Positions 5,245-32,900 of a stretch of DNA of 64,000 nucleotides are shown here, one piece after another. The DNA comes from Hysterium pulicare CBS 123377 (Eukaryota > Ascomycota > Dothideomycetes > Hysteriales > Hysteriaceae): positions 1 to 64,000 of the forward strand of contig AJFK01000018.1 of the NCBI GenBank assembly GCA_000467715.1. Reading direction: 5' to 3'. Positions within the stretch are counted from its first letter, which is position 1; every line of letters starts with the position of its first letter. The notes beneath the pieces are model-generated. The model did no database searches, was not told the origin of the DNA, and saw only the letters and a list, made by a program, of their open reading frames with translations. Made by a program: the position numbers and the translations under genes.

Positions 5245-5357
5245 AAAGCCAACAGGGTCGAAAGCCGACAGGGTCGAAAGCCAACAAGGTCGATAGCCAA
5301 CAGGGTCAAAAGCCAAACGGGTCAAAAGCCAACAGCATCAAAAGCCAAATGGGTCGA
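5245..5357. repeat. Minisatellite, about 7 units of 16 bp
   Basis: About seven imperfect units of roughly AAAGCCAACAGGGTCG follow each other without spacers, with variants such as AAAGCCGACAGGGTCG and AAAGCCAAACGGGTCA. The 16 bp period is not a multiple of three, so the array is not a simple amino-acid repeat. Confidence 0.8.
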
Positions 5358-12024: not shown

Positions 12025-12599
12025 GGTGGAGCACCTGAATCATGATAGACCCGCGAGGACAACGAGGTTCCAGCCGGCTACAGAGGACGGTTCTCCCATC
12101 TCCATTCCAGGGAGACATGAGGGTTCTGAGTGTTTTTGATGGCCTAGAAAGACCTTGTTGCAGGAGTTGGGTTGGCGTGTTCGTGGATGGCTGATTTTGT
12201 GGGCTTGCGGTGAATCTTATGGAATGGAAGTTGATCAATCGCTGCCAGCATCGCTCAATGAACGAACGGTCGTTCTGTATGGAACCTAAAGTTAATTAGT
12301 CTTCGGCCATATCGTCATAAGTTTTGCTTACCTTTCTGCTTCTTGTCGTATACGGCATTTTGCACTCTTCGGTGTTCTTTTGAAGGCCTGCTGCACAAAA
12401 CCCTGATATTATAAATCAAAATCTTATTTCCATCTACCATGTCTTGATAGCTTAGTTTTGCTTTGAAGCTAAGTATGGCCGACCAATCATCTACTAAGAT
12501 CGCGCTATCCGTCCTCATACACGAGCCACGTCCCTCAGCCCAGCAAAGTTCTTCCTCCGGAAACCAAGTAACTTTTGCCTTCAATTCAATAGCCTTCAT
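11987..12599 (-). CDS. Possible two-exon hypothetical protein (weak)
   Basis: A frame from ATG 12599 to 12332 ends at a GTAAGC donor. A 46-nt intron follows (GACTAAT branch site, TTAACTTTAG acceptor), and exon 2 runs in frame from 12285 to a TGA at 11987, for about 188 residues. The intron is well formed, which is the main support. Exon 1 is hydrophilic (KAIELKAKVTWFPEEELCW). Exon 2 is Ser/Thr/Pro-rich without a motif and overlaps the start of a better coding frame. It may be a relic, like its surroundings. Confidence 0.25.
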
Positions 12600-12960
12600 C
12601 TTGTCCAATCAGCCTGAAACACCATCCTCTGCATTTATACTCAAAGTCTTCTCATCGCCGAACCCAACGGCGAACACACGAAGCTACTCTGATAGTGAGG
12701 ACGACGGAGGCGGAGCGGACAAGCATCGTTGTCGTACATCTGGAATCATTTGTTAATGCGCTTTCATCGAGTAGAACACCTTCAGACTTACTTCATCTCG
12801 ACTGCGATGAGCTTCTGGGTTATTCAGTAATGGTCGCGAGACCTCTCGAACTCACTTTGCAGCAGATGTGGTGACTCCCGGAGGAGCGAGAAGAGGCATC
12901 CAAGATCATAGACCTTGGATTGGAGTAAGTCCAGCGACCGATTTGATGGCCGGAAAGCCA

Positions 12961-13270
12961 GTCACCTGCCAGCAAACTGATAAGTTTCCATGCCATCCCT
13001 GACTCCTGTCTTCCAAGGTCGGTATAATCTTTTGATGCCCAATGATCGTGAGCTTCTTTCCCGTTAGTTCCAGCGACAGCGTCGTTGACGCTGATTCAGA
13101 GTTTTGTTTGCTGAAGAACTACGTAATTCTCTTTCGCTGGTTGTCTCTATTAGGGAACCAAGCTCACGTTTGGGTCGCAGTATGACAAACCAGGTCTTAG
13201 CCATGATGCAGTAGTAGAGTGCGCAAGCAATGGTCACCTGTCAGTGAACTGATAAGCTTCCAAGCCGTTC
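12961..13270. repeat. Direct repeat pair of about 40 bp
   Basis: GTCACCTGCCAGCAAACTGA near 12961 and GTCACCTGTCAGTGAACTGA near 13230 are each followed by TAAGTTTCCATGCC or TAAGCTTCCAAGCC. Spacing is about 270 bp. This is one more sign of local duplication; the origin is unknown. Confidence 0.5.
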
Positions 13271-13778
13271 TTGATAGCAGGATTGAATTGGTCGACACAT
13301 GTGCGAGCCAAAGAGGAGCTTTGTGCTTGTGCCCTTGCCGAGCACGTCGAGGGACGTCCTGCTCCAAATCCCATAGCACGAGTATAGGATTCGAGAAAAA
13401 CCGACAGGAAAAGTCGGGTTTGAAGAGGAGGTTTCCTGCTGCGTACTTTCCTGGTTCAGCAAAACCCAAACCTTCGACCAGCCAAAGTAGACCGAGGACT
13501 CTGCAGGATCTGAACGGTTCAAGGAAACTTTCCCACTGATGTGCTTCCTCGTCGGACTTGACAGTAATGTTGTTTGCCGACAGGTTTAGGCTCTTCAGGT
13601 CGTAGGAAGAGAGCTGTATCGCCCAGTTCAATATATGCGATAGGAAGTCGCTTTGCTGAATTGGCCGACTGCATGGGCGAATTTGGGTCATCTGCCCAGT
13701 GAAAGGCCCCGCTCGCCACCGGCGCCAAACGAACAATCTAGGCCCAATAATCAGCTTAGTACATAAGAAGAAGTACAA
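13197..13778 (-). pseudogene. Open frame containing a GOGAT N-terminal scrap
   Basis: A 193-codon minus-strand frame contains PGKYAAGNLLFKPD (around 13430-13465). From memory of the family, this matches the N-terminal glutaminase part of fungal NADH glutamate synthase, where the sequence is close to GEYAVGNLFFKPD. The flanking residues do not look like GOGAT, so I read the frame as a relic patch holding one conserved block and not as a working gene. Other GOGAT scraps lie at 18.8-19.3, 21.2, 23.3 and 27.1-27.9 kb. Confidence is moderate because the block is short. Confidence 0.45.
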
Positions 13779-14119
13779 GAATCTGCAAATACCTGGTGCC
13801 TCGAAGCTTGTATGGGAAATGGAGGATGTCTTGATGGTGGAAATGGAGGAAGCATTAGACCGAAGTGAGGCAACGACTTCAGCAAAGAGTCAGAGCATGG
13901 GCCAAATCCAGGTTGGCAGGGGTCTAGCTGCTCTTAGTCACTCCTTCCTGGTACCTCTGGGCCCCTTTGCCATCTTCTGGTCCTTGCTGGCAAATGTTGC
14001 ATGATGCTGCGCATGTTTGTTGCATTTCCCTGCTCAGGATAAAAGGAAGATGGTGGTATTTATCACGATATTGTGAAAACGGATGCCCATTTCATTGCTG
14101 ATTCGTTCATGCAGGGGCG

Positions 14120-14704
14120 ATGAAACCGAAGTTGCAGGTATCCTGCTGTGGCATTGCGCTTCCACTAGAGCACCCTGCCGCTACGCGAGTAACTCTTCAC
14201 AACTTTCCATTTCCTCGTAAGGATATTGCCTGGTCATACGGCACATCTTTTCCACTGGCCAATGTCCTCGAGCTCCGCGAATGTCGCCACGAATATCTTT
14301 TCTTGGACGACTGCACCGTAAAACCTTTCAGACGAGATCAAGCCAGGCAACTCCCTCAAAACATTGAACCTCAGAATCCAATGGCCGAACTTCGACGACC
14401 TGAGATACAGGAACCAAGCATTCCCTCGTCACTGTCGATTATAGCTTCCAGCGGCCCAGAGTCGCTCAGCACCTCGACTGGATTGATGAAGAGAGAAGTT
14501 GCGCCGCCGTACCGATTTTCAGGCTACCTGCGAGTTGCCAATGCCTCTTCCTCCTCTGCTGCATCTAGAGTTTCATCATCACCGGGCCGCGGCAGTGATA
14601 GAAACACGTCACTATCACCAATCTGTCAGAATCCTTTTGCAGTTACCCTGCAAATGCGTCGCAGATTGGCCACTGAGAATCCCGTACGGGAACGGCCGTG
14701 GTAG
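14120..14704 (+). CDS. Hypothetical open frame of 194 codons (weak)
   Basis: This is a single ATG-started frame, with a Ser-rich part (ASSSSAASRVSSSPGRG) in the C-terminal half. There is no signal peptide, membrane span or known motif, and there are overlapping frames on both strands. It is listed because it is long for this tract, but it could be fortuitous. Confidence 0.2.
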   Translation: MKPKLQVSCCGIALPLEHPAATRVTLHNFPFPRKDIAWSYGTSFPLANVLELRECRHEYLFLDDCTVKPFRRDQARQLPQNIEPQNPMAELRRPEIQEPSIPSSLSIIASSGPESLSTSTGLMKREVAPPYRFSGYLRVANASSSSAASRVSSSPGRGSDRNTSLSPICQNPFAVTLQMRRRLATENPVRERPW

Positions 14705-14847
14705 GGGCCGTAGAGGAAAGTACAAGAGTAACAATGGCCGCGTGAACTATAACCAGCACGGTGCTCCGTTGAAGTTAGTTCATCACGCTGCATATCATCC
14801 TTAACACTACTAAGCATCATCGATCCAGGTCCGCTCGGCCCCTTTGC

Positions 14848-14985
14848 TTCGATCCAAGCACCCGCTAAGAGATTCGCATATGCGAACTCGAACGCACTCC
14901 TGGACGAACCTGTGGATGGCACAGCTATTGCTGCTATTCCCGAAGATATCGCAGGGAAGATGAGAGAGGAGAAGGCTGCGCGGAC
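14848..14985 (+). pseudogene. Copy A of a duplicated unidentified exon
   Basis: The plus strand reads LLDEPVDGTAIAAIPEDIAG. The same exon recurs on the other strand at 22560-22672 as LDEAGWPVDGTAIIAIPEGI. The two also match at DNA level (CTTCGATCCAAGCA, then GTGGATGGCACAGCTATT, then GCTATTCCCGAAG). Both are embedded in sequence that does not match. I do not recognise the source protein. Confidence 0.5.
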
Positions 14986-15310
14986 CAAACCCTGTTCGAT
15001 GTTTGTGTGTATGGGGTCACTCTACCTAGACATTGCATCAGTTGAATGAAGGCAATTCGGACTCCGTCACAGGTCCACTGAGATACCAGAACCAATCACC
15101 ATCACAGTTTTGTTCAAAATGCCCATTCTTCACCCATTCCTTTGGGATGCGTTCCCCACAAACGAGACCTCAAGTCCTATGTTGACATCGATGTGAGGGA
15201 CGATGACCAGTCCGGGGACGCCTCCAGCCAAAAGATCGTTGCTTGGGTAGACGAGTGAGTACAAAGCACTCCCAGATCTCCAGCTGGTAGGGTATGGGTA
15301 AGCAGCTAAC

Positions 15311-15742
15311 AACAAGCAGTGGGTTCCCCAGACACTATCTTTGTCATTGTCCAAGGACTTTGAGACCGATATCCCGAAGGCCGCGAAGATTTCTTTCAAT
15401 GACGCCGTTGCGGCCAGGAGACCAGGCGGTCTCAGGACCCATGATGACGATAAGGCGGTCAGCGACACAATGAAGAATGGGAATTATACCGCTGAATGTA
15501 TCCCCAACTTGGTCAACATTGAGAAGGACGATGTAGGGTATTCGAGTGACGAAGCGATGGCTATGGCGTTCGAGGTTATGCAAAACGCTTCGTCTCCGCA
15601 AGGATCATCAAGCCTTCTCAAGCCTTCTCCGAAAGTGCCCGATAGAAAGACGTCAGATGAAGAGCCTTGCTTCCGGATCATGTGGTATTTCCACAATGGC
15701 GCTGGATGCATGGAAAGTTCTGGATGTTGTGCATCTCTCTAG
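15311..15742 (+). CDS. Coding-like open frame, unknown product
   Basis: The frame is open from about 15311 and closes at TAG 15740-15742. Composition is protein-like: SKDFETDIPKAAKISFNDAV, VSDTMKNGNYTAECIPNLVN, DDVGYSSDEAMAMAFEV. Just upstream (15130-15254) another coding-like stretch (DIDVRDDDQSGDASSQKIVA) ends at a GTGAGT donor, and a GCTAAC..CAG acceptor lies at 15319. Joining them at these sites does not keep the frame. It is either a decayed gene or a model I cannot resolve; no family is recognised. Confidence 0.3.
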   Translation, partial: NKQWVPQTLSLSLSKDFETDIPKAAKISFNDAVAARRPGGLRTHDDDKAVSDTMKNGNYTAECIPNLVNIEKDDVGYSSDEAMAMAFEVMQNASSPQGSSSLLKPSPKVPDRKTSDEEPCFRIMWYFHNGAGCMESSGCCASL

Positions 15743-16678
15743 ATGCTAGATGGAAGGTAGGGTGTTAGATGTGCTTCATCTTGGAATAGCAGATGCGCCC
15801 AGTGGAGTCTTCGCATTTACATTCTCTCGAATTGGAGCATACGGCAATGAAATGTTTGCGATGTATTGGCTTCGAACTGGGATCAGACGAGCGGGCGGAT
15901 ATAACTTTTCTTCTGCTGAGAAGTAGTAAGCCATTGAGCTTTCTCTTTTGACGCTGTTCCAATACGATGTCTAAGTTGCATGTCGCACATTTCTGAGAAA
16001 AAGGCCCAATTTGGTGCTTGGTGATGGGTGCTTGGTGCTTGTCAACGGCAAAGTAAGATCGATGACTATAAACTCCCTGAAATTGATCATAAGTTCGAAA
16101 TTCAATGCGTCTTCTGGTGATTGTGCTGTCGTCTGGCCAAGTATCCTCAACTTTACATGCGCTATATTCTCTCACCATTATATTCTATCAGTGTAGTTTC
16201 TCTCGCCATTATGGTCTCTCTTCGTTGTATACTCTCAACGCCGCGCTCTTCCGATCTTGCCAATAAGTAATCTTAAGCAACCTGAAAAGGCATTCCCGCG
16301 AAATCTAGAGTTATTCAAGACACCTTAATAGATCACCTCACACAAAGGGATATTGAAAGACTCTTGGGGAGACTATCGACTTTTATATCATTTGGACATA
16401 GAGAACAAAGTACCTTAGGAGCTCCAAGCCTTCACCTGGCTAGGAATCCATTCCATAGGTAGAATCGTACTCAGCTACCGCGGACCCAGATGGGAGCCAA
16501 CCTGTTTCCGAGCCTGATACCATCAACTGATCCATCTTCCGGATAGCATTTACACTTCCCCCCTCGGATTCACCCCAACTCTAACATATCTTGCACCAGT
16601 ATTTGAGACACACAATCTCTTCTCAATTATCTTTTCCCACCCTACCCTGCCTTTGGTATGCTCACAAGTCTTCCTTGC

Positions 16679-17135
16679 TTACCCTCGTTCGTTTCCATCT
16701 TGAACTGGTAGATCCTAGACGGCGAATCGGCGTGTTAGTCCTCATCATCCCGAAAGTTTAGAATAATTCATCATACCTTCAACTCATCCATTCCTCCTTG
16801 AGCAAACAAATCCGTCTCGTCGAACAAGCAATCAAGCAGTATGTGTCCTTTTGGAACGCGATCACGGGACCAATGTAGCGTACGCGCGATGGACGATGGA
16901 CCAGGCGCAGCTGAGGTGCTGTTAAGCCATGGCGTGGTCTCGACAGTGGCTTTGGTAGCCATGGTTGTCGAAGTGTCCAAGGTAACCGAGGCCGGAGTGC
17001 TAACAGAAGTGAAAGGCGTCGAAGTGGGAATGACCGAAGTGTTATCGCTGCCTTTAGCCGTAGAAGATATGGAAATGTATCGGGATGCCGTGGCATTGAT
17101 CGGTTCATCGTTCCGTGGTTCATACCAATGCCACT
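16679..17135 (-). CDS. Ser/Thr-rich two-exon frame lacking a clear start
   Basis: The minus-strand frame is open from about 17135 to 16777, ends at a GTATGA donor, and continues after a 62-nt intron (GACTAAC branch, CCGTCTAG acceptor) from 16714 to a TAA at 16679. The middle is Ser/Thr/Val-rich (TSTPFTSVSTPASVTLDTST, with TTPWLNSTSAAPGPSS). The C-terminus is acidic and ordered-looking (HILLDCLFDETDLFAQGGMD). There is no signal peptide and no in-frame ATG at the start; a possible acceptor (CTACCTCAG) precedes it, so upstream exons may be missing or decayed. Function unknown. Confidence 0.35.
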
Positions 17136-17536
17136 GAGGTAGGAGTCAACTCGCGAGTGACTTGACGACCTGCGTAAATTCCTTCAGGAGTTGTTAGTTT
17201 GAAAACTGATTTAATCCAGGATACGTACCTACTTATCATCCACCTTCCATCGCAGGGCCCATTAAATAATATCCTCGAAGAAGTCATTGATCAGGTCACG
17301 ACCATCTTGCAAAAGAATCAGTGCCGGATCAAGGTCCAGTTATGCCATATTGGTGTTTAGTACCTGGCGTCTCCGCTCTGTCGTGCTTTCGCGATGAGCT
17401 CTTGCTGGGTGTGACCAACAGCAGGCGTTCGTGGAACGTGCTTACCACAAATGTTTTTACAAGCTGTTCCGCGCGGGTCTCTTACGAGTCTTCCTTCTCG
17501 GTTTTTTTAACGAGGTGTCCTCCTCGAGCTGGGAAT

Positions 17537-17757
17537 CCGGTCTTTTCTTCGACGGCGTCATCTAGAACGATGTTGAGATAGGGATTTGATCGGGACTGTA
17601 CCTGAAGCTGCATTTCGGTGCGGCCACGATGAGTTCTAGTGAAGGTCAGCGAGAAATTTGATACGAGATGGGGATCATAGCCGCACAAGATCTCAAGGAT
17701 ATTTCGATTGCCGTTCAGGACGAACAAGCGTTTGCCCAAAAGCTCAGGCTGTGCTTG
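17537..17757 (-). pseudogene. 5' half of a SmG (snRNP G) gene, broken
   Basis: On the minus strand QAQPELLGKRLFVLNGN, then NILEILCGYDP, is followed after about 90 bp of unrelated or intron-derived sequence by PYLNIVLDDAVEEKTG. These are the Sm1-motif blocks of the core spliceosomal protein SmG (KRLFVQLNG..GVLRGYDP.LNIVLDDAVEE). The start is damaged: the usual KKYMEKRLF is shortened, and Q is lost from FVQLNG. Similarity stops after EEKTG. The missing next block (GGEKVPIGMVVVRGN) occurs alone at 27194-27238 on the other strand. This is a partial duplicate of a housekeeping gene, not the working copy. Confidence 0.75.
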
Positions 17758-18779
17758 AGGCCCTTTTTATGAGGCCGCACTTGAAGCTGCATTCTGGTGC
17801 GGTCCAAAAATGTTGGTGATATAGATGATGATGTAGAAGAAAGTGTGGGTGTGTGAGGAGTTCACGTTAGCTGGCGAACTAAAGTAGGAGCAGCCAAGCC
17901 TCAGAATCATTGCTCTCGCCCGAATGCTGAGCAGCAAGCGACCCGGACATATGACTTGCCCACAAACATACCTGAACATTCAAACAGCCTGGTGACAGCT
18001 AGTTCAACTTTCTGCAGCAATGTTACCTAGGGATAGTCGAGACCATGTTATTCCTGTTGAATGTCCCTTTTCACTCTAATGTAAAATCAAGGAGACCGTA
18101 TACCTAGCCAATTGGACATAGTTTTAGTGGCTCCTGGCCTATGCCTGCGGCGGAGGGGAACTCGGGCTGCACTGCCGCTGTCAAACTGCCAAACCACCGC
18201 CGAAATTTGGGCGGTCCACCGCTGATACCCATTGGTTTCGCAATAACAAGCCCCTAATTTTAGCGATAGCTGGTAAGGTCTCCACCAAACAGCGGGCCCA
18301 GTCTTAGCAATTCTCATATTAAAATCATCCACCAATTTAATTCTAGATCTATTTCACATCGCATATTGGATCTACTAATCTTGTATCAGGACTTTAGACA
18401 ATTTATCTTTCTCACACTAACCTTTGCATGGTATTGGTAGAAACAATGATATCATACGTGAAAAGATATAACTAACAAATAAAATCATTGCATTCCCCCT
18501 ATGCTCCCTTCAAATTATACATCAACTCCTATCGACCGTCTGAGCCGTCTATCCGAACCATCCATCCGAGCCGATATTAACAGCAAGAATCACAACGCTG
18601 ATGTCCTCAGTGTGGTAGGATGGTGCTTTTAGTATTGGTATGGACGAGATGCCAAGTATGCCACCTTGTTGACTCCGACCCGAACGTACCGAATTAGGAA
18701 GAGCAGCGTGAAGGTCTAGGCTGGCAAATCTGCCTCGCTTGAGGAGCTCGATATTTTCCGTTTGGCTCTGACCTCGACC

Positions 18780-19290
18780 CAGCTCATCACCAAAAAGATC
18801 TGACTTCATGACACCTTCGCGTGCCCTCATCCAGTTCTTGTTGCCTCGCAGGGTATTGATTTCACCGTTATGGGCAGCCCATCGCAGAGGTTGAGCAGGA
18901 TCCCAACTGGGAAATGTATTTGTCGATAATCGGAAGTTGCCAAAGGAAAATGGCCCTCATAGCCGACTGATTTCTGGCTATGGTGATGAGATCCAACTGA
19001 CCCTTATACATGATGTTCTTGTTGCTCGGGGAGCAGAGAATGTGCCAGTTGTGTAGCCCGATGACATGGATGCTCGCTTCCGCAGGGCAAATAACTATTG
19101 CTTGAGTTCTGCGTCGTGCAAATCTGAGAAGTCGGAGATCGGTTCTGCTGGAGTATGATGGGTTCTCGAGACAAAGCTGCTGGACTCTTGTCCGGTTTGA
19201 AAAAGTCCTTTGCAAACTGATCTTGTTCAAACGAACCTGACTTCTGCTGCTCCGAGACAGCGTTCTTGAACCAAAGCGGCCGATACAAAA
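18780..19290 (-). pseudogene. Glutamate synthase (GOGAT) N-terminal fragment
   Basis: Conserved GOGAT blocks follow each other on the minus strand: FFKPDKS joined to PAALSREPIILQ (about 19230), LFALRKRAS, HVIGLHNWHILCSPSNKNI then MYKGQL (about 19000-19080), [20 protein letters not shown] at 18932 downwards, [20 protein letters not shown], then [10 protein letters not shown] near 18785. They belong to the class II glutaminase domain that feeds ammonia to 2-oxoglutarate. The order is right, but blocks are joined with deletions and frame changes, and Q before LFALRK is a TAG. Similarity ends after GDEL. This is a truncated, decayed copy; the functional gene must lie elsewhere. Confidence 0.85.
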
Positions 19291-21109
19291 CATGAGACCC
19301 GACCCATCCTGCCCAGTGTCATCTTTCGGGTGTTCTTCACCCTTTCTCTATCGCTTCTCGAAGACCTAGAAGTACCAAATTAGCGACTGTTCTGCAAGCT
19401 GCGAATATAGAGGCTCAACCTCCGAACCTACGTTCATACTGTCGAATGTCCTCTCAGCATGGGTAAAAAAGTTGTAAGCAATGGACTTTGAGAATTTCTG
19501 GCCGTCTCTCCTTTGTCGTCTCTGTCCATCTCAAGGAAGTGCCTGAAGGTATGTACCGTAAGATTTATCTGTGGGTTGCATCCTTCTCGTTGTTAAAGTT
19601 GTGAACGATGTAAAGGGCAAGAAGCAGAGACTGACCATGAAAACTTAAAAGGGGTGAGAATAAAGTATTTCCGAATCAAATGCTTTGGCTTTCAAAGTAA
19701 AGAGACGGGCGAGAGATGAAGTGTGAGAGACAACGGTGAACGATAGTTTCCCTTCCAAATGGATTGTTGGGTCAAAACAACTAGGTAAGCACTTGGGCAG
19801 AGGTCGTTGCACGTGATTGGGCTTAGCGTGAGAAAATGGTTTACCCTTTCGGGAAGTACCCCTCTCGCTTTATTCTGCCGCTTCAAAACTTTTATCACAC
19901 TCAATAATTCCACGGCCTTTAAAAGCCGTATCACTGTCTATATATGCCCTACAGTTGCAGGATTCTACCGCAACACCACATACAACAGCAACGGGGTCCG
20001 GATTAGATCTTTGCTTAAATCAGCTTCGTTCCAACTAGCAAATTGCCCATTTGCCTATGTTATCCTTTCCATTCCTCAAACCCGCCGCTACTTCTATGTA
20101 TCCTCCAAGGCACAGTACATCGGAGCATTCTAAGCAGGACTTGCATCCCTTTTACTGATCGGCAGTGGCTAGCACACCAGCGAAACCAGCTGATTCCATT
20201 CGGCGGCTAACCAGATCTTTCCCATACAAGAGCACAGAACACTATTCGGCAACCACAGCCCACAGCTTTGCACTCTCCTATTCTCTTCCCTAGAAGACTG
20301 TTCGAATGTTTCCTTGAGGAGGAAAGAGTTCGGTGAGGGTTAGCCATTATACCCATGGCTTTGGAAGGACAACACTCGAGGCTATTGGTAGCGCCATGTA
20401 ATTGGGATCCCATAGCCCAGTACTGGTATGGAAACAATGATGACTACGCCTTTTACTTCTTGCCGGGCTCCGGATCTATCTGCGTATTCTCATGGATGCT
20501 CTTCCTTTGTTTACTGATGATAGCTCTCTCCAGTCTGCTTCCCAACAACCTGTCTCTGTCATGGCCACATATCCACGTATCAGTACTCCACGAAAGTTCT
20601 CCTTTCAAAAATCTTTATTCGTGTGGTGAGTTGCATACACCTTCAATTCCCGGACTTCACTAACCTCACTCAGATTCTCCGTCAGAATACCTCTCGTAAG
20701 GGGGTCTATGTGCCAGTTCTGCATACCATGCTAAAGCAATCCAAACCCTACCTCCCTTCAAGCACGATATCGGATGAGCACCCCTCAACCCCTACAGCTT
20801 TGCACATCTATCAGCACTAAGCGCTACACACAGAGAGTTCCACAGATTGCTACGTTCAACGTTCATAGCCTTATGTTCATATACTTCCATCGGCATTCGA
20901 AACTCACTGACATGAAATACTAGGAAGTGGAAAGCTGACTTCCGTCAGCCCCTCTAGAATGGAAGATCTCTATATCTGGTGATCTATGAGCTAATCCACA
21001 AATGTGTCGAGATGTTACGGCCGAAGATCGATCTTGTGAAGCAGCGTTGGGCTCACGATTGCTTGGTGCAACACTTGAAAGACATCAAGGTCGTTAATAA
21101 ACGTGCCGT

Positions 21110-21412
21110 AAGTTGATTGAGGTCGCCACTAAGTCACAGTTTGCTAACTATGTATACAGTTTCAGAGCCGGTACGCCCAGGAACAAGATGAAGACACGCA
21201 AAGGTATCCTGAAGTCAAATCTTTTCGGGGATGGACTAGAATTGTTAGAGTCGATCATTGAGGACGAAAGATCTGATTCGGCCGCCTTCGACAATGTTCT
21301 CGAATTGCTCGACGTTCTTTCTCTGCCAGAAGCAGTCATGATGTACTGCAAACCTACGAAATCTAACCGCAGCTCCGAGAGCAGTATCGTGGGACAGCTG
21401 AAGGTGTCTTAG
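21110..21412 (+). pseudogene. GOGAT fragment, second copy, opposite strand
   Basis: The plus-strand frame contains NKMKTRKGILKSNLFGDGLE, then SIIEDERSDSAAFDNVLELL and DVLSLPEAVMM. It corresponds to [59 protein letters not shown], with a four-residue deletion after VLELL. The first part overlaps in content with the minus-strand fragment at 18780-18830, but the sequences differ. The two therefore come from different copies or have diverged for a long time. After PEAVMM the frame leaves the family. Confidence 0.8.
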
Positions 21413-22459
21413 TTCCGCCTGTTGCTGATCTGCTGAGGTTCTGGACCGGAGACTTATAAGTTATTGGTGGCCAGCGACATCCATAGCTCTGGCTAGATTC
21501 GAAAGAAAGGAGAAATATTGTTTGAGATTTCGGCATCGAGGGACAGATTCGGTTCACGTTGTTCTCTAAGGAGGATAAACCAAAAACACTTTCACCTCAA
21601 TTGCACGAAGATAGCCGCCTGATAAGTCCTTCTTCGTTCATTTAGTTCACAAAAAGAAGTCGTTTCTCACCCAATCAAGACATCAAAGCCCCGTTGATGT
21701 TCTGTGATCTCGTCTCCAACCAGTATCATTTCCCTGAAGCCTTGTCCTTTTAGTAAACCTGTGACCTTGCCCACATTGGGCGGACTTCCTTATGAACGCT
21801 TCCCTTTATGAAGACTACCCAAATTTTTCCCTCGTCTGTTCGCCCTCTAAGCACCTGCTTGTCTGGAAACCACTCGCATCTCGCAACGAATCCTGAGTTG
21901 GCATCAATTCCACTTATGACTGCTGCTGGGCATCCATGTCGGTCGTCCAGCAGAGGCTTCAGCCAAGTGCTATAACCGGGCTTCTTGCAATAGATCTAAG
22001 CTTCGAATAATTAGACTCCCGGTGTTGGTGGTGTAATAAGGTGATCGGACATTGTCATAGTTTATTGCCATTGCAGGCCTGCTGGGCAATAACACCGCCA
22101 TGAAGAACAGTGATGTAGATGAGGTATTTGTAGAATCGGTCGTTGGTCATTGGAAAGCTGTAGAGACTTCCGTGCGGAGTCATTCTCAGGGAGAATTGTG
22201 ACGCGTCCGCCGCTAATGCAAAGATAGCCATGCTATCGTCAAAATGTGGTGCAGGAATCCGTGTTTTCTCGGGTGGGATCAGTGTTTTCTCGGGTGGGGA
22301 TCAGTGGCTTGGGGGCGAGGAAAGAGGTGAGGGAACTTGAGCTGGATTGAAAGACCCGTTGCTGAAGTCAGATGCCCGATCTAACGGCTTCTTCGAAATG
22401 GTGTTATCAAAAGGGCGGTTTCCGCTTTTTCTTCCTTTAACTTGGCCTCCAACTCCCTC

Positions 22460-22690
22460 CTCAACCTCTCGTCTTCCTCTTCGATGGCTGACTTGAAGTT
22501 TGACCACCCACCAACATCCTTCTCCTGGGCTTACAGAGAAGCCTTTTTCTCCTTTGTTGGGTTTCCCTCTTCAATATTTTCTGCGATGCCTTCGGGAATA
22601 GCAATAATAGCTGTGCCATCCACCGGCCAACCCGCTTCATCGAGCTGCATATTAGCGGATGCTTGGATCGAAGGACGTAAACCAAGGAGT
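22460..22690 (-). pseudogene. Copy B of a duplicated unidentified exon
   Basis: The minus strand reads SIQASANMQLDEAGWPVDGT followed by AIIAIPEGIAENIEEGNPTK, ending near a GTAAGC donor. A further coding-like stretch follows (WSNFKSAIEEEDERLRRELE). It is the better preserved partner of the copy at 14848-14985. The charged, coiled-coil-like continuation suggests the source gene encodes a helical protein. Family not recognised. Confidence 0.5.
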
Positions 22691-23259
22691 CTTTCCTAGG
22701 TTACTGCAAAGTAAGCTGCTGTTGCTTGATGAGAGTGGAATAGTGTTACTGTACCCACCTGGATATGATGTGCGGTGCAGAGTCGATAGTGTCTGGAGGA
22801 AAGATGGGCTGGTCAAGTGGGGGTAACATTAGGTTGGGACTTGCGATTGCCTATTAGTCACCTTTTGCGTCGCCTTCTGGCTTGGGTGCTCATGCAAAGT
22901 TTGTCCCTCCCGCGACTCAATCATCTCCCAAACTGTCTCTTAGATGGATTTCCGCTCCAGAAAATGGGTGGTTTGTTTCTAAAATTGATTTTGGTGCGGT
23001 TTCACACACATTCTCCTAGCTCCCGCTATCACTGCCTGTCCAATTCCTATCAACCCTTCCCAACTACATCTTGCCAAACGTCACTAAGCTATCAAAATAT
23101 CAGAAGGCAAAATTTCAGCTACTCGTTCATAGTCTTTCAAGACCAACACACTCCCTAAGCATGCCTACTGTGTTTCATCCTTCCCAGGTTTTTCTGTACA
23201 AACAACGCGGAACTCAGTACCCCAGACACTTCTGCTAATGATCCAGCTAGGTAGGATAA

Positions 23260-23331
23260 GGTGGTGAAGATCCTGAACGACGTCTCCGCCTTGAGAATGG
23301 CGATACCATGCGGTCTAAGATCAAACAAGTT
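23260..23331 (+). pseudogene. GOGAT middle fragment (24 codons)
   Basis: The plus strand reads [20 protein letters not shown] then IKQVA, a near-perfect match to the GOGAT synthase-domain block [33 protein letters not shown]. Similarity stops abruptly: the strongly conserved continuation (SGRFGVTS) is absent. The block is only 72 bp long and is surrounded by unrelated sequence. Confidence 0.75.
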
Positions 23332-26300
23332 GCGTTCGATAGTTTCGCCGCACTTCAGCTCCTGATGCCAATAGCTTCACTCCGTCTCAGTGCTCCACCA
23401 CCATCATGGTAACTGACTGGCCATCGGACAACCCCAGCGGGAGCTGGGAATGGAGAGGTGAGTGTTGCCTGAAATGACTCTTTTTCAAGTCCGCACGCTC
23501 TTTGGTATACGCATAAAGCACGTTCAGGATTCTGTCGGCAATCTTATGATGGACAGACCTCTAGCTAATATTCTAAAGCTTAGTCACTAATTTGAGCTCA
23601 TGTAGCATGGCTCTCACTACCGCGTCCAGTTTTGCAGCAACAACCTTTAACCCTGCAGATATTCATGCCGCAAGCATCTACCATGTAGGGAATGACGCAT
23701 AGTGCTATCGAAGACTCGAAATGCAACGCGTGTTCTTTGAAGACAGACCTGTGGAATACAAGAAAGAGAGGGATGGCTTGACGGAAACAGGGATGAATGC
23801 AAAAAGGAATTATGGTCGGCGGAACTGGAGAGCTTGCACGCAAGCACTAATCCACCGGTCCACCAGGGACTCCACACCGACCTACTCAGCAACCTCCACG
23901 TAATTCTAGCGTCCAGAAGCTCGGCAGAATAGAGACGCCAGATACGCAGTTGATACAATCCTCCAATATCTATACCCTGGGAATGAAAACCAGCGATCTT
24001 GGAAAACCGGCTACAGGCAGTTGAATCGACAAAACACGAGAGAAGAGATTGCATCCACTCATCATGACCAACTGAGAACCCCGCCCGATACTGTACCATT
24101 CTGCTACTCCAGCTCTACCTGCATCCAATGCCCGGAAACACGGCAGGACCGAGACACATCCGAAACCCAAAGGCAGTTGCGAGAGTACTCAAGCAGGTGA
24201 GTTAGGTGCTGAGTATGGTTTTACATTTGTATTTCTTCAAGGGACACAGCAGGACTCTTGCAGATGTTGCTAACGTTAAACGTGAGCAGATGAAAAGTCA
24301 AGCTCCTGTTGTATTCGTCGAACCCATCGAAGAATGCTACAGAGGTAAAAAGGTACCTGTTGATATGGGGGCTGTACGAGGAATGCTCAAGGCCTGCACT
24401 TGCATGCAATCTGCCGCCTGTATGGACAGAGGTCGGATTCAGACAAGAGTTTCTGGCACATAGAGGTCATTTTCGCAGGCCCTGGGGGGTTGAGTAATAG
24501 GCATATGATGTTATTTCTCCAAGTTTTCCCATTCAAATCGCTGGCAAACCTTCAAAACTTCAGTCTGTCAACTCGGTAGCTGACAGATCTATAAAGCAAA
24601 TGATACCGGTGTTACATCACTTCTCGCACCGATCCAATGCTGTGTGAAGGAATGACAACCCTATTTCAATCTCGATTGATACAAGGTACAGGATGTCCAC
24701 ATCATCACACATCACATCCACCGCCACATCCTTACTCATACCATCTACAAATGAAAGAACAAGCTTCAGAGGCCGCTCTTGCCTCATAAGTCCATTTTGA
24801 CGGAACAAGGCCAAAGTATTTTATGATTCGGACTCGGTAGAGTGCATGATCAAGTGTCACTCTCATGGATATGCCAGAGGAGCGGATCCGGCCAGTAACG
24901 CATCATCCTTCGACATGTTAGAAACCCTCCAGGAACAGCTCGAGGACAGATATCTTACCAACGGCAGTCGAAAACGAGCACCAGACTAGCTCACTGCTGA
25001 GAGTAGATCCGTGTCTGTTTGAATCATGGATGCTAGGCAAGATCGAAGATCCTGTCTTAGCCACTTCTTCATGCTTCCCATAGCAAAGATTTAGTAAGAG
25101 TGGAATATTTCTTGCCATGGCAGATCAGCTCCTACAGCATTTAAGTTAATTGCATTAAAGTTGATCAGATATGTAACCCTTTGCGACTTACCTTGTTCTT
25201 ACGAGATTAGGCACCAGCTCCATACTGCTTCTGCTCCGCAGTCTTGAAAGTGTCGCGGCCTGACCGGGACTTGCCGAGTCCTTAGTTTAAAAGTGCAACG
25301 GAAACCTTTCATCCTGAACCTCATCATCACATCCACTGCGTGGATCAATGTCATCGCAATTTGGGTTGGATGTAGCATTCTGTCTCTTCCATGTGAGCAG
25401 ATCTACGCAAGATTGATTGTCAATGACAACTGGCTTCTTGTTCGTTCTCGATATCTTTCACCCGTGGTAAAAAGGTCGAAGAAGCCAGACAATTTGTCGT
25501 GAAATTCGTGCTCCACATTTGTGGAATCAGTATCATGAACAACTTTTGAAGAATATGCGTGCAACTTGGTAAAACCTTTATCGTTTCGGGCCATAATCAT
25601 GAGGATTTTGCATTGATCTTGTGATTGCTTATGGTGGGAAGGCGATCATTACTTCGCGGAATGAGTATGCCGCGATGCCATTTCCACTCGATATGGAGAT
25701 GCATAATTATGGAACAACGGCGAAGGTCATCAACTGAGCCTTGGTAGTGAACGTCTGGGTCAAATGGCTTTGGTATATGTGGAATTCTGCAACTAATGCT
25801 CTTCCATCAAGCAAAAGATCGCGACCATTTACGCTGAACATTTCCCTGGCATAGCTTGACTGTGTCACATCACAGTACCTTTTCCGGTAGTCCTTCTAGT
25901 ACTGAATCTGCGTCTTCTTTTCGCCGAGATCGGCAACTCGGCCATTTCGCTTCTTTCCACGGTCTGCGAAACAGCCTCTTCTACTGTCCACGGGTACAAT
26001 TTAAGGCTAGTAGCACCATCCGACTCCTTGACGCTCGCTTACTGTATGAGGTGAACAGGCGTCCTGTTTGAGTTTGCCGGTTGGAGGAATCCTTCTTTGG
26101 GCTGTTGCTGGTAGGTCTGTATGATAGTATCTTTGCTGTAACAACTAGTCAGTCAGTCAGTCTGGTAGCATGACTGTGGCCATTTACTCCGCGGTCGGAT
26201 GGCCGTGCCAGATCAACAATGACAGGTGCCAAATGGTATGATGTGGATGCGGGCTATCGATGCAGAGACAGGTGACTTGTTGCTCAGGGCCTGGGGCTAG

Positions 26301-27126
26301 GCTAATTCCGAAGGGTGATCCGGCGGTAGGGATTGCGTCAGATTCAAGGGGTTTTGGCTAGTCACAGGACTATGGAGACTCTCTAACGCGTCTATTCCTG
26401 AGCAGGTTGGTGCCGCTGTCAGCTTGTCGCATCAATGGTTAACATAATGGTCAAGTTTGGCGCTGAAAGCTAGTATGGCTTGCCACAGAAGCTACTAAGC
26501 ATGCTGAATCATCGACTGCAAGGCTTTTGATAAAGTCACTTGGCTATTCGAACAACCCACATAGAATTGTCTCAGTATTATCACTCAGTGCAATGCATAA
26601 CGAAGTAAACATCAGATTGAAGGCAGGCATGATTCAGCTAGCTCCAGAAACATGGCGAGATTATACGGAAGCCAGAACCGAAGTGATAATCGCCCTTTCA
26701 CTGCTAGTTCGCATGTACCCAGGCAGTGTTTGTGGCCCCTGCCCTGCCCTGCACTAGCGTGTGCCATCCATAAAAGAGAATTCTCCGCCATCGAGTCACC
26801 TCTGCTTCTTTTCCCCCACCCTCAACCCTCACTTTTCTATTTACTTTTTTTAATCCCCTCGGGGAAACCCTTTTTTTTCGCCCCTGGGGCACGACCCCGG
26901 TGTTACGGAGACCCCCATTTGTAAGTCTCTCAACCTCAATCTCACTGAATACCTTCATTAACCTACATTCAGACATGGCTATGCAATCACCGCCGATGGG
27001 GGATTCCTTGGGTGAGCCTTACTTGTTTGAGCTTGATTGAGATCCATGCTAAACCCAGACGTCAGGGTTCAGCCCCAAGGAAGCGCTGGGTCTCCCTTTT
27101 TGATGGGCCGCCCGGATTCAGCCTCG

Positions 27127-27174
27127 AGAGAAGCCTTCAAATATATGGGCAATGATACCCCACTTGCATGTCTT
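27127..27174 (+). pseudogene. GOGAT scrap (YMGNDTPLACL)
   Basis: REAFKYMGNDTPLACL matches the GOGAT central-domain block EKEALGSMGNDAPLACL. The match is short but specific. The residues before it (SPFLMGRPDSAS) do not belong to GOGAT. It sits in the third exon of the unit at 26.9-27.45 kb. Confidence 0.5.
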
Positions 27175-27193
27175 ACCGCACAATCCCACCGCC

Positions 27194-27238
27194 GGAGGCG
27201 AGAAAGTTCCAATTGGCATGGTTGTTGTACGAGGCAAT
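27194..27238 (+). pseudogene. 3' block of a SmG gene, isolated
   Basis: GGEKVPIGMVVVRGN corresponds to the Sm2 motif region of SmG (GEKVxIGMVVIRGNS). It is the direct continuation of the block that ends at 17537 on the other strand. The usual tail (SVVMLEALERI) is not found after it; instead AWG and a GTAAGC donor follow. It lies in a different frame from the GOGAT scrap 20 bp upstream. Confidence 0.65.
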
Positions 27239-27465
27239 GCTTGGGGTAAGCTTCTCCTTTTGTTTGCATGTACAAAGTTCGAACCGACCTAACGCAACGT
27301 CAGCGATGGCTTATTTGCAGTATCGGGTGAGACGGATGCTAAGGTGGAAGAGTTGGCCAAAGAGATGCACGAAATTGACGAAAGGTCTGGTGAGTCTTCT
27401 CTTCTTCGGTGTTCCTTCACCTTGTGATAACGACTAATCCCATCGCCAGGCATTTGGGAGCATAC

Positions 27466-28090
27466 ACTTGTACCGATGGCATAGGAAACAGGTCTCCCGC
27501 AAGCACATCTCAAGTTCACGACCAAACCGTTTTGCCCTCCACGCCGAGACTCTCACGCAAGCGCACCTCAAGTTCACGACCAGGCCACGACGAGTCCGCA
27601 ATGACTCTAAACTACGAAACTTGGATCGATGGCATAGGAAATTTGGACAAGCTCGTGGTAGTTGTTAGTGGCGGAGACAACGGAAACGACTGTATTGGCA
27701 TCTCCGTTCGCCATGGAGCCAAATCCGTGACAAACTTCGAGCTGCTTCCACAGCCGCCACCAGACCGTGCCCGAGATAACCCATGGCCGCAATGGCCGCG
27801 CATCTACCGTGTTGACTACGGACACTCAGAAGTCAAAACGCACATGGGCAAGGACCCACGCGAATACTGTGTTATGTCTAAGGACTTCGTCGATGATGGC
27901 GAAGGCATCTATTCAATAGCGAAGCCTTCATGCAAGCACAGCTCAGGTTCACAACAGAACAACGTGGCTCTTCACAACGAGTCCGCAATGACTATAAACT
28001 ACGAAAGTTGACTTGTATGGATGGTATAGGAAATCGGCGATGCTCCACACAATCACACCTCAAGGTCACAACCAGTTCAACGTGGCTCCC
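27466..28090 (+). repeat. Three-copy repeat carrying a GOGAT piece in copy 2
   Basis: The repeat begins GATGGCATAGGAAA (at 27477, 27628 and, as GATGGTATAGGAAA, 28020). It continues with CAAGCACATCTCAAGTTCAC (27511), CAAGCGCACCTCAAGTTCAC (27559) and CAAGCACAGCTCAGGTTCAC (27933), then with ACGAGTCCGCAATGACT and TAAACTACGAAA (27589 and 27979). Copies are about 100-150 bp. Copy 2 is split by the 27646-27906 GOGAT fragment, which lies between GATGGCATAGGAAA and the CAAGCACA segment. Confidence 0.7.
27646..27906 (+). pseudogene. GOGAT C-terminal (beta-domain) fragment
   Basis: The frame reads [88 protein letters not shown]. This is the NAD(P)H-binding part of the GOGAT small-subunit domain ([23 protein letters not shown]...). 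It is almost unbroken over 87 codons, far better preserved than the other GOGAT pieces. One glycine of the GGGDTGND nucleotide loop is changed to serine. Both ends are sharp: similarity starts just after a repeat phrase and ends before another. It is a captured or duplicated fragment, not a gene. Confidence 0.9.
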
Positions 28091-29454
28091 CGCGCTGAAG
28101 GTAGTGAAGGTTTGCGAGAATACGGAAGTGGGTATTGATTTCTCTATTTGAGTTTCTGGTCATCCGGCGAGTGGAGAGGCAGCAAGGTGCATCACCTTCT
28201 TCCAGGTTACTTAGTATGACAGCTGATGAGTGTTATTTTCACGGGAGTCCTATGAAATCTTCAATATGCATCAAATTCTTGCGTAATGGCTTTGGTGATT
28301 TATGTTTTCGAGCGTAGCATTATCCATGTGTGACATCCATTCGAATCTGGACGTTGTTTCACAAAACCATTCGACGAGCGTGTACTTCTCGCGGAGACGC
28401 ATAATCAAAATGATAGAAGAATCAAGAGACTAAAATGGACGCATCAAGCTTCTGGTATGTTCTAGTCGCTTGTTTGAGTCACTTTGGCCATTGCTGCATA
28501 ATGCGCGGGAGATGGTAGGCAGTCGCCTGTCCCGGTAGGCGGCCTTCAACTTCATATTCGCCAAAACCCGCCAACTTCAGCCCTCAACCTTTCATGCTCG
28601 AGCCCTAAATAGATTTGTGCTTTATTTACTGCTCACATTAGGCCTTCCAGTTTACCCCAGGAAGTATCTCACCATTCCTCAAAGCATATGGTTGAGCAGC
28701 AGGTTTCACTGATTTCACCTATTTCAACTCTGAACCCTACATATGTAATCCGGGAACATTTCCGAACTTTTAGAAGCAAAGTCCGAAAGTAGAATATTCC
28801 CAGAAAATCGAACTCCTCCAAAGACACCCGTTGGACCATACGACGGTTACAATGCGTCGTAGAATAGGGCTAGAAGAGTCCAACCCAAGCCCTCGGAGTC
28901 CTCACATAATCTGAGTACCGTAAATGGAGGGAGAACGCAGTGTACTGGAGATCTTGTTACTAGGGAAAAGAAATGACGACCGCCTTGGAAGACCCTCCGG
29001 AATCCAAGCGCAATGGAGCACTTCCTGCATACTTTACTACTCAACCTCGTCGGCTGTTTGAGGGTATTGTGGAACTACTTGCTCTGGTCCCGGATCTGCC
29101 GATTGAGAAGGGCCCAGCCAACACATGCAACATTAAGGAGATAATATAAGATAGCTGGCGTCTGTGAAGCAGACCGCAATCGACATGCGCTCAAGGACCT
29201 GGGAGGATGGTGCGTAAGCATAGGTTTCTGCAGGTCAAAGGATCGACTCACTTTCACCTTCTAGAAAACTCCAACATTCTCCATCGAAACAAGATCTACG
29301 GTCTATCTCATCAGCTTTGAACCCTACCTGACCCTTAGCGTTATTGCAAAGACCTATCACTACGACGATACTCATGTAATGAATTGTGTATAGCATGGAA
29401 ACGGGGAAGGCGCTGCGATATTGTCGAGTTGCAACAGTCTCCTGAAATGGTGTG
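28091..29454. other. Stretch without a supportable gene
   Basis: Short frames only. I see no motif, and no intron chain with compatible frames on either strand. Confidence 0.35.
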
Positions 29455-29960: not shown

Positions 29961-32900
29961 ACGAAATGAAGGAAATATCAACAACGACGGTACATAAGTC
30001 ACTAGTATTGGACGTGTAAGCTCCACAGAAATGATTTGATGACAGGGTATTGGAGACTCGCCCTACCAAACTGTTCCAGCGCGCTTGAAATCAGCGTTAT
30101 ACTACTCTCCTGAACTGCTGGCGTTGAAGCCGCGGTTCCTAGTCCATCCTGCTTTGGTCACATAGCCCTTTGTCTCCTTGTAGCACCGACCACATGTTAT
30201 GTATGCTGGAGACATAAAAGGGGGAGGAGTTGGACGACGGTTATCTCTTGCCCTCCCATCATTCTACGCTGGTTTACTTTAATCTCTTCGCTTGCATCGA
30301 AATCGGACTTTGGGCTTCCGAGAACATTAAGGCGACATCTTATATAGGCGCCAGGAATGGTTGATTGGAACAGACTGAAACGCCATTTAGTGAGGTGTAA
30401 CGGAGGAAAGCGTTGGTCCCGTTTCTGCTTGTCAAAGGTTGCGTCAGAAAATCCATATTCTAGGCTTTGGCAAATACCTTCACTGGAGATTGGAGAAAGA
30501 TACCTAAACTGTTGCTAGAGACTGCTATATGGAGATGTTAGGCTTTCAATATAGGAGAAAGCTATAATCATTGAAGTCATGAACAGTTTCATCAATTCAA
30601 ATGTTAAGTGCCGTCGCAGTGTTTTCGAAAATACCAGGGTGCAAACTGGTCTCGCTTTTCGCTTTTTGCTCACAGATTTCCGCCATCCCTACAACGTCAT
30701 CAGAGACTCTTGGGCTACCTTCGCCGTTAAGCGTGCCTTTCCTTCTGCACCGATTTCAGATTCAATGCGAATACCTTACCTCTCTCAAGACACATTGACC
30801 AGCTACACTTCCTTGGCCATCGTTTCTCGGGTCCCACTCCGCTGAAATTTTCCAGATTCTGATTCGAAGTCCTAAACACCACGAATCCCCTGTTTCTAAG
30901 CTTGGCTCAAGATGGACGCAGCACGATACAATACATATTCAATGTGACTGGGTCAAGATTAGTAGCTCATTACCGGACGCCGCACCTTAAGAGATGGATC
31001 AAGCCGATTAAGAGGAGTGTCCGACACGCGCGGACGCAAAGAAGGCTGGTAAGCTATTTGCTGTCACTGCCGGCTTTATCTCCAAATCATCACCATGTCA
31101 CGGAAGCAGGCTTATGAGGCACAGGTTCATGATCGAATAGGCATGTCTCTCGAGGACGACCCATTGTAGTGGCTAAACCTAAGTCAACACCAGCGCGAAC
31201 GATATCAGAGACACCATTGACGTTACAAGTGGAAATAGTTCTCTCTTCCTCCCTTTGGCATTACCTTTCTTCTGCATCACCTCAAATATGGCTTCGGAAT
31301 ATCTAAGTGTTCGTGTTAGTCTAGATCTAGCACAATGCCGAAGGGCATTAAGAAGATATGTACCGCCAAAAAGTTTGAGATTCCATTGGCGTGTCCAGAA
31401 GCGTATCGTCAGAGACTGCGACGGCATTGACGTTGGGTAATAGATGTCAGATAAGTATGGCATGATTTTTTCCCTAACATGAAGCTTATGCGATACGAAT
31501 CTCACAGTCCGCACTCCAATTACCTGTCCTATATCTACCTCGCCTCGATTATGCGCAGAACCTCCTAAGCACTCGAAGATCCCTCTACACACGGCACCAC
31601 CAGTAACTACCTCGCGGACACCGACAAGTATCATGTCACGACACACTACCACAGGGGTGCTAATACTAGTGAGTGGCTGAAGGAGATAGATGGACTTACA
31701 AGATCCTACGTGGCAGGACCAGTTGCAAATACTAGGCACGGTTCGGAGTGGATTCACCCCTCTTCCACGGTTCCACCCTGTAACGCCCAAATTACACCAC
31801 CTGAAGATGGTCATACCAGTTACTAGCTTCCTTGTTTGTCATCTCAAACGAACCTTTCTCCATTCTCGCATCTGTGGTTTCCTAAGAAAGTATGAGTCGG
31901 TCAACATCAATCATACAACAGCATACCTCTAGAGAATTTTGAGCAAGACTGCCTGCTGGGGTAGGCCGGACACCCTCCACTATGAATGGTGCCGTGCACC
32001 AAGAAGACCTTGACGCGCTGGAACAACTTGCGAATGTACTTGCTGGAAACCTGGTTCCTGACATGGCTGCTTTTCAGGTTCGTAAGGTTTTTGTTACGAC
32101 TCTAGATCAGGAAACGCTAATGTTCGAACTGGGAAGTTCTAATCCTGCATCAACGCTTCCACCTTGAACAATGCGAAATTTGCGTGCGGTCGGTTACTCC
32201 TACAAGCCACGAAACGAAACCTGTCAGATAGGCCTCGCATCAGCTATCGAGGATTGCTTTCAATACAAAGAGCCAATTGGTGTTGGGGCGTTGGGGTTGG
32301 TCAAGACTCAAGGCTATGATGACGGCTTTTGCCCGCAGCATGCTGTCAGATCGAATTCCCTTGGCCAAGCCAGAGCAGAATCCAGCTCAATGAGTCCACC
32401 ATAACTCCACATATCTTTTGCTCATATTGGATGCGTTCTTCGATGAGCTTAAAAAAAGAGAGCCTTCATCATCGCAATGATTCAATCCGTGGCAGGCGCC
32501 ACACAAGGTAAACCCACCTTCTCCTCAGCAACGTATTGCAGCTATACTGATTCTTACAACTTCACAGAATACCCACGAGTCTCTTTCAAGCTTTCGAAAG
32601 GGTGCGCCATCATCGACTCGAATTTGCACATCGTTCCCTCTCCTGACTCCTGCAGCATCACCGTTCTGCGAGTTACGCCACACCATGACCAGGAATTAGT
32701 TTTCCCTCCTCGGAACATAGATAAACTCCACGAGGCGTACGCAATCGCTTTCATTTTCGAATGGAACGTGTGTTATCGCCAGCGATCCCAGTACTCGAGA
32801 GGAGGAAGAGGACAATGAGAACCACGGTTGGGAAAGGAAAACATGGTTCTCATGAGATCGATCAGATAAATGCGCGTCACACTTTCCAAACACGACATAC

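Follow-up and report, generated by a model that had tools for sequence, protein, structure and literature searches.

The first 64 kb of contig C16 (AJFK01000018.1, 99 kb) of the Hysterium pulicare CBS 123377 assembly (37.2 Mb, 596 contigs), referred to here as the window, carries a dense patchwork of short pieces that match other places in the same genome. A hand-made list drawn from these own-genome matches contains 38 merged pieces with 20 source labels between positions 12421 and 34911. They are 35–389 bp long, with a median of 143 bp, and are found on both strands (18 plus, 20 minus). Some are derived from the glutamate synthase gene GLT1, which a first-pass annotation had taken for a single gene shattered in place. 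This does not hold: GLT1 is only one of the 20 source labels, the sources are nested, and GLT1 pieces are also present on contigs C15 and C300. The GLT1 patches themselves exist, and the evidence supports more scrambling than ordinary decay would produce; a patchwork of shards from many host genes takes the place of the single-gene interpretation.

Own-genome DNA matches indicate a high density of such pieces. At least 27 were found in the 11 kb between 12.5 and 23.5 kb and at least ten between 23.5 and 35 kb, in comparison with at least three in 29 kb of gene-rich control stretches (at least two at 35–50 kb and at least one at 50–64 kb). From 1 to 12.5 kb there are at least seven, six of them at 4074–4393. 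According to the open-frame list, the right part of the window is occupied by long open frames resembling ordinary genes, and the left 34 kb has shorter frames only.

The pieces are packed closely against each other. Gaps of at most 20 bp separate 16 of the 37 neighbouring pairs and 14 of the 35 pairs from different sources, while random spacing of all pairs gave a mean of 1.6 such gaps and a maximum of eight in 10,000 trials. Within 12864–13696, for example, pieces of C80, C441, C80, GLT1, C441 and C322 follow in succession. At ten junctions, chosen for abutting, one source ends and the next begins within 0–12 bp, and no more than a few bases are common to both; small indels displace some of these alignments, and decay has blurred the edges. 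The pieces are also nested: a relic of C433 encloses a relic of C335, which in turn encloses a shard of CBF5 (dyskerin), both outer relics continuing on the other side (Table 1).

A gene was recognised for four of the sources, namely GLT1, CBF5 (C402), a cyclin gene (C80) and a leucine-rich-repeat gene (C441), and C240 has a weak DUF7730 match. Pfam searches of ten source frames gave no match for six. The C335 source frame (L014 579–2117, minus strand) is 513 codons long, with pieces on C16, C282, C213 and C555; it has no Pfam match, and no homologue was found at E 0.001 among 7986 scored candidates. The labels C213, C416, C390, C426 and C92 may represent short dispersed repeats rather than genes. 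Short elements with copies on C218, C217, C565, C163, C426 and C31 (74–90% identity) make up 4074–4393 (plus strand), and a dispersed repeat (C92, C507, C548, C486; 74–81% identity) lies at 34622–34911, near the onset of the ordinary genes.

The count of 38 leaves out the GLT1 patches at 27.1 and 31.6 kb, the second register of the C213 match, and several rows overlapping other pieces: C282 on C335 at 14671, C288 on C386, C15 on C40 at 12.7 kb, C507, C548 and C486 on C92, and the C300 rows. One C18 piece, 23417–23961 by BLAST, was split at 23573 following a junction-aware alignment. The jump cost of that alignment was too low and produced many spurious bits below about 60 bp; it was used only for the edges of BLAST-supported pieces.

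The intact GLT1 gene is located on contig C74 in two long open frames (locus label L008). It is the sole strong match of the synthase domain among the genome frames (E 1e-132), five weaker matches (E 2e-6 to 7e-4) being found in other frames of 311–471 aa, and its protein is 93% identical over 501 residues to that of the Dothideomycete Zopfia rhizophila. With this gene as the query, tblastn and blastn (two settings) revealed four strong blocks in the window, at 18.8–19.2 kb on the minus strand and at 21.2, 23.25 and 27.6 kb on the plus strand. The best tblastn E-value in one reversed and ten Markov-simulated control windows was only 0.57. Six patches had been proposed from the sequence. Besides the four strong ones, the patch at 13.4 kb (minus) is reduced at the DNA level to a 35-bp match of 86% identity (score 25, maximum 18 in 500 shuffles), and the one at 27.1 kb (plus) is marginal (tblastn E 0.005 over 27100–27183). 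This listing was also incomplete, as most pieces match other loci. A further patch at 31.6 kb is considered unproven because its DNA score of 21 hardly exceeds the shuffle maximum of 20. Four tblastn patches with E 0.57–0.98 (at 5.6, 12.9, 36.4 and 42.3 kb) were discounted as GLT1, as were two blastn patches seen in the broader setting only, 17125–17199 (minus, E 3e-4) and 28973–29106 (plus, E 1e-4).

The three strong plus-strand blocks keep the order of the gene. The scrambled order described earlier is right only in part: blocks on the minus strand and both weak patches fall out of line. No significant GLT1 remnant was found between the strong plus-strand blocks (best E 0.27), though the blocks themselves are 74–88% identical to the gene, and several blocks adjoin pieces from other loci. 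With matches in more than two places, which do not form one collinear gene on one strand, with other loci abutting and with one block doubled at two ages, the pieces do not resemble a single collinear relic that decayed where it lay. A 205-codon open frame (27394–28011, plus strand) crosses the 27.6 shard, where it keeps the reading frame of GLT1, and its flanks are unrelated; it may have arisen by accident or represent a new fusion. A self-match connects the flanks of the same shard (27553–27642 and 27928–28034).

The pieces differ in age. As had been noticed, one block is present twice with different sequence: the 60 bp at L008 3329–3388 are part of the 18.8 block and are repeated at the start of the 21.2 shard. 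Aligned to the C74 gene, the 18.8 copy differs at 4 sites and the 21.2 copy at 15; two changes are shared, two sites are changed differently, none is private to the former and 11 are private to the latter. Equal age of the two copies is unlikely (two-sided 0.001). The 18.8 block is itself uneven: a 193-bp stretch has 87% identity and a 162-bp stretch 72% (Fisher 3e-4, calculated on rounded counts). C18 pieces elsewhere in the genome range from 98% down to 66% identity. In view of these uneven ages, the patchwork was probably assembled over time. A chromothripsis-like single event, with one age and each part once, is contradicted by overlapping pieces of differing age, and a single collinear pseudogene was rejected on the grounds that strand, order and age are not uniform.

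The same donors are found in other patchworks. GLT1 pieces are present on C15 (three, collinear) and C300 (one). The parts detected do not overlap between C16, C15 and C300 and were detected singly, except where parts overlap by 60 bp on C16 and by about 25 bp on C15. A GLT1 edge is located at L008 8535 on C16 and at 8538 on C300, which is suggestive only, with a roughly estimated chance of about 1 in 10. Pieces of C441, C18 and C40 are found on C15, and further C18 pieces on C300, C171, C213 and C36. Overall, C15, C300 and C213 carry similar pieces of the C16 donors, in many cases from different portions of the genes. A common donor had led to several of these contigs; a first shared donor is then expected, further ones are not. 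GLT1 and C335 together have seven pieces outside C16 in an 11.6-kb query, versus at least three matches in the 29-kb control (Poisson 3e-4), a test in which the donors were picked for having a C16 piece and which contrasts hot donors with window genes, not random genes.

On C300, pieces of C18, C322 and CBF5 are clustered near 48–50 kb. The two CBF5 shards of this cluster align across exon, intron and exon, the intron being placed by eye from reading frames and the CBF5 sequence. Apparent retention of the intron points to copying at the DNA level there; from inspection of these C300 copies, such copying is likely. The CBF5 intron seems to start with GC in the intact gene (L076 1555–1843, C402) and with GT in both C300 shards, in an alignment read by eye. 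The whole C300 patchwork (L077, ~47.9–50 kb) consists of a recent C18 piece (330 bp at 98.5%), a second C18 copy (71 bp at 80%), C322 and then the CBF5 shards, of 82% and 71%.

No transposon domain was detected in six frames over 1–10 kb and 12–36 kb at E 0.05, a scan that a badly decayed or non-coding element would escape. Its Pfam matches were GATase_2 in the GLT1 shards, a sub-threshold DKCLD match in the CBF5 shard, and F-box models for an open frame at 35.0–35.8 kb. An amplified captured unit was not found for GLT1, whose parts were detected single. The window has no footprint of repeat-induced point mutation (RIP), that is, raised TpA/ApT and lowered (CpA+TpG)/(ApC+GpT); the indices are flat over 16 blocks of 4 kb, which rules out RIP as the source of the divergence. 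A processed pseudogene was also rejected on the CBF5 copies of C300, which seem to keep an intron. Seven rows of tandem repeats in the window are unconnected with the pieces. Further right, two adjacent related genes (41883–42830 and 43950–45155, minus strand) form a local duplicate pair, with 60% DNA identity over 416 bp.

Table 1. GLT1 shards and pieces from other loci in the window. Positions on GLT1 refer to L008; where two ranges are given, the second is that of the block.
Feature	Position	Strand	Evidence
C240 piece (gene with weak DUF7730 match below Pfam cut-off)	12421–12685	-	blastn 76% over 271, E 2e-43
C40-locus piece (C15 also has a copy)	12690–12850	+	blastn 74%, E 8e-23
C80 (cyclin gene, Pfam) piece, more diverged copy	12864–13003	+	blastn 70%, E 2e-12
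C441 (leucine-rich-repeat gene, Pfam LRR) piece	13006–13207	+	blastn 80%, E 2e-43
C80 piece, less diverged copy	13204–13379	+	blastn 90%, E 1e-51
GLT1 shard, residues 46–66 of long frame	13413–13475	-	DNA match over 13413–13447 only; tblastn E 0.017
C441 second piece	13486–13619	+	blastn 81%, E 1e-26
C322 piece (C322 adjoins CBF5 shard on C300 too)	13626–13696	+	blastn 82%, E 2e-9
C361 piece	14182–14329	-	blastn 79%, E 5e-28
C433 relic, left part	14331–14656 (14331–14554, 14601–14656)	-	blastn 82%, E 2e-52; 79%, E 3e-5
C56-like bit within C433 left part	14541–14599		blastn 86%, E 4e-9
C335 relic, left part, inside C433 relic	14671–14954	-	blastn 74%, E 2e-49
CBF5 (dyskerin) shard inside C335 relic	15054–15248	+	own CBF5 on C402: blastn 65%, E 6e-17; tblastx E 6e-18; Pfam DKCLD E 0.003, below cut-off
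C335 relic, right part	15368–15635	-	blastn 76%, E 9e-48
C433 relic, right part	15669–15769	-	blastn 73%, E 3e-8
C386 piece (partly C288)	16903–17064	-	blastn 78%, E 1e-33
C18 piece	17246–17391	+	blastn 66%, E 3e-11
GLT1 shard, 2926–3388, glutaminase part	18781–19185; 18780–19145	-	blastn 77%, E 4e-73, plus 37 bp at 95%, E 1e-5; tblastn E 1e-28; DNA identity 77%; Pfam GATase_2 E 4e-22
Further C433 pieces	20977–21182 (20977–21107, 21124–21182)	-	blastn 77%, E 6e-22; 76%, E 9e-5
GLT1 shard, 3329–3500	21178–21340; 21179–21373	+	blastn 74%, E 1e-26; tblastn E 7e-15; DNA identity 74%; GATase_2 E 7e-8
C335 piece, less diverged copy	22415–22655	+	blastn 86%, E 1e-66
GLT1 shard, 5313–5409, synthase part	23254–23350; 23254–23346	+	blastn and DNA identity 78–83%; tblastn E 3e-8
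C18-locus piece, left part common to C15, abuts 23.25 GLT1 shard	23344–23961	-	blastn 64–75%, E 1e-8 to 9e-45
Possible GLT1 shard, marginal, 4015–4100	27098–27183	+	blastn 67%, E 1e-5, in broader of two settings only
Short dispersed bits (C426-like, C390/C36-like), both sides of 27.6 GLT1 shard	27492–28117		blastn
GLT1 shard, 8273–8535, NAD(P)H part	27645–27907; 27646–27906	+	blastn and DNA identity 88%; tblastn E 9e-50
Possible GLT1 shard, unproven	31593–31859	+	tblastn E 0.001; DNA score 21, maximum 20 in 200 shuffles
C441 third piece, outside that gene's long frame	33753–34095	+	blastn 70%, E 5e-49

The explanation that we favour for 12.4–34.9 kb, with about even confidence, is that double-strand breaks repeatedly took up short genomic pieces, which were later rearranged locally. 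A gene-poor part of the chromosome would gather short copies of the fungus's own DNA over a long time. End joining would close double-strand breaks by taking in short stretches of DNA from other genomic sites (templated or "filler" insertions), and later breaks would hit earlier fillers, resulting in nesting, both orientations and differing ages. The captured pieces would then decay, small inversions and duplications adding to the mixing, and the sources would have been copied, not cut up. This explanation is preferred because the pieces match elsewhere in the genome, their edges abut, they are nested and of unequal age, and the scans gave neither a transposon domain nor a RIP footprint. It is also preferred because the sizes of the C16 pieces fit those of break capture in yeast, as given in a preprint (PMC10802722). 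The earlier phrase, in which copies of host genes are broken and re-inserted, serves fairly as a brief summary; that the donor was copied and not cut up is what we infer.

Several observations weigh against capture at breaks. The pieces explain only 5875 of the 22,491 bp of the region. Random capture would not yield a recurrence of donors, and GLT1, C441, C18, C40, C322, CBF5 and C335 recur in several patchworks; there are 20 source labels on C16, yet several return on C15, C300 and C213. On C16, C15 and C300, GLT1 is found 0.2–2.8 kb from a C18 piece, on opposite strands each time, which hints at a shared ancestral unit. Codon positions were compared in eight GLT1 shards (four on C16, three on C15 and one on C300; the 27.1 patch was aligned but excluded). 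Third positions account for 176 of 296 differences, and simple copying from the C74 gene does not fit these shards. Third-position divergence is uniform among the shards (p 0.83) and first-plus-second-position divergence is not (p 0.005), a heterogeneity that rests on the 27.6 shard (p 0.23 without it). That shard has 26 silent versus 5 replacement codon changes, with 26 of 31 differences at third positions, an excess with P 1e-5 under a 45% copy model and 0.001 versus the pooled other GLT1 shards. The 45% is an estimate of what a copy of a constrained gene should show under free decay, assuming that 70% of third-position changes are silent. In favour of capture, the 16 non-GLT1 coding pieces (14 on C16, two on C15) come close to it, with 199, 164 and 289 differences at the three codon positions, i.e., 44% of 652 at the third. 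The GLT1 donor may thus have been a second, diverged, long-functional copy broken up late. A close sister lineage is a possible donor of the 27.6 shard; a distant foreign donor is unlikely, as a D residue within a 10-residue stretch is common to the shard and C74 and missing in four fungal proteins.

A second, diverged gene set (a duplicated segment, a hybrid parent's copy or an accessory chromosome), broken up and spread over C16, C15, C300 and C213, is retained as a less likely but serious alternative because of this codon-position pattern and the donor set common to several contigs. One donor under selection, broken up at different times, would give uniform third-position and non-uniform replacement divergence, and the non-overlapping GLT1 parts with their nearly coinciding edges, the C18 neighbour in three patchworks and the collinear GLT1 parts of C15 also point to it. 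On the other hand, the C18, C335, CBF5 and C40 pieces overlap among themselves, differ in age and reach 98% identity, so more than one copy or event would be needed. The non-GLT1 pieces fit free decay, the matching edges are possibly due to chance, and neither an intact second copy nor neighbour genes in native order were seen. It is somewhat doubtful that the same small gene set was repeatedly copied into the same few acceptor regions, either through an accessory or extrachromosomal intermediate that is time and again broken up and spread or with donors and acceptors held together in the nucleus; the patchworks would then be a dated record of break repair in which certain donors are preferred.

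Uptake and spread of gene fragments by a transposable element (Helitron, hAT, Pack-MULE or Starship-like) is improbable. Gene capture by a hAT element is known in Dothideomycetes (PMC6710886) and short dispersed bits lie on either side of the 27.6 shard, but the six-frame scan of 1–10 kb and 12–36 kb gave no domain, each GLT1 shard was found once, and introns are apparently retained in the CBF5 shards of C300. Less probable still is that an ordinary collinear GLT1 relic underwent one inversion and subsequent insertions. Such a relic would fit the gene order of the three strong plus-strand blocks; reversing 18781–21177 brings the 18.8 block into order, with the 60-bp repeat at its edge, and the second gap has seven very weak plus-strand matches (E 0.27–5.3) versus one on the minus strand. 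It is disfavoured by the unequal ages of the repeat copies and by gaps without significant GLT1 remnants, besides the pieces of other loci that abut the blocks and the GLT1 parts on other contigs. An assembly or contamination artefact, which the fragmentation into 596 contigs might suggest, is hardly credible: most pieces differ by at least 10% from their source and are therefore not misplaced reads of native genes, several contigs share the pattern, and C16 runs on into ordinary genes.

Human pericentromeric mosaic segmental duplications, with pieces of kilobases to hundreds of kilobases, likewise juxtapose gene pieces of many loci that are common to several acceptor regions, whereas the median piece of C16 is 143 bp. 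Yeast gene relics are also decayed pieces of genes with intact relatives but are usually single, in contrast to the end-to-end patchwork of C16; such relics are the subject of Lafontaine et al. (2004). No account of comparable gene patchworks in fungi was found, in a search largely missing subscription papers. In stationary-phase or Dna2-deficient yeast, the preprint describes end joining at double-strand breaks that captures nuclear copies of mitochondrial DNA (NUMTs), Ty cDNA and nuclear pieces of ~45–300 bp, longer for nuclear DNA, with two to four pieces joined (PMC10802722). Short pieces from elsewhere, several of them joined, and edges with little or no homology are common to both systems. 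C16 differs in its nuclear genes, dozens of pieces in one region, nesting, mixed ages and recurring donors, and its mechanism is inferred. At Cas12a cuts in the filamentous ascomycete Magnaporthe oryzae, donor DNA was inserted as concatemers, with many pieces joined in either orientation and 0–3 bp of homology (PMC9684475); this was a laboratory event with supplied donor DNA, whereas C16 holds natural host gene pieces. In Dothideomycetes, a histone H3 transcript was captured by a hAT element, reached high copy number and was RIP-mutated (PMC6710886). Inactive housekeeping-gene fragments beside one intact original are shared with C16, where in contrast there are many sources, introns are seemingly kept, shards are single and a RIP footprint is absent.

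Fragments that are 80–90% identical to core genes can pass for genes or recent duplicates in annotation. If capture at breaks is true, some gene-poor regions of fungal genomes would consist of tiny host-gene scraps, not transposons. The boundaries, ages and donors of the pieces would then form a record of break repair over evolutionary time, and the recurring donors would make the choice of donor at breaks testable.

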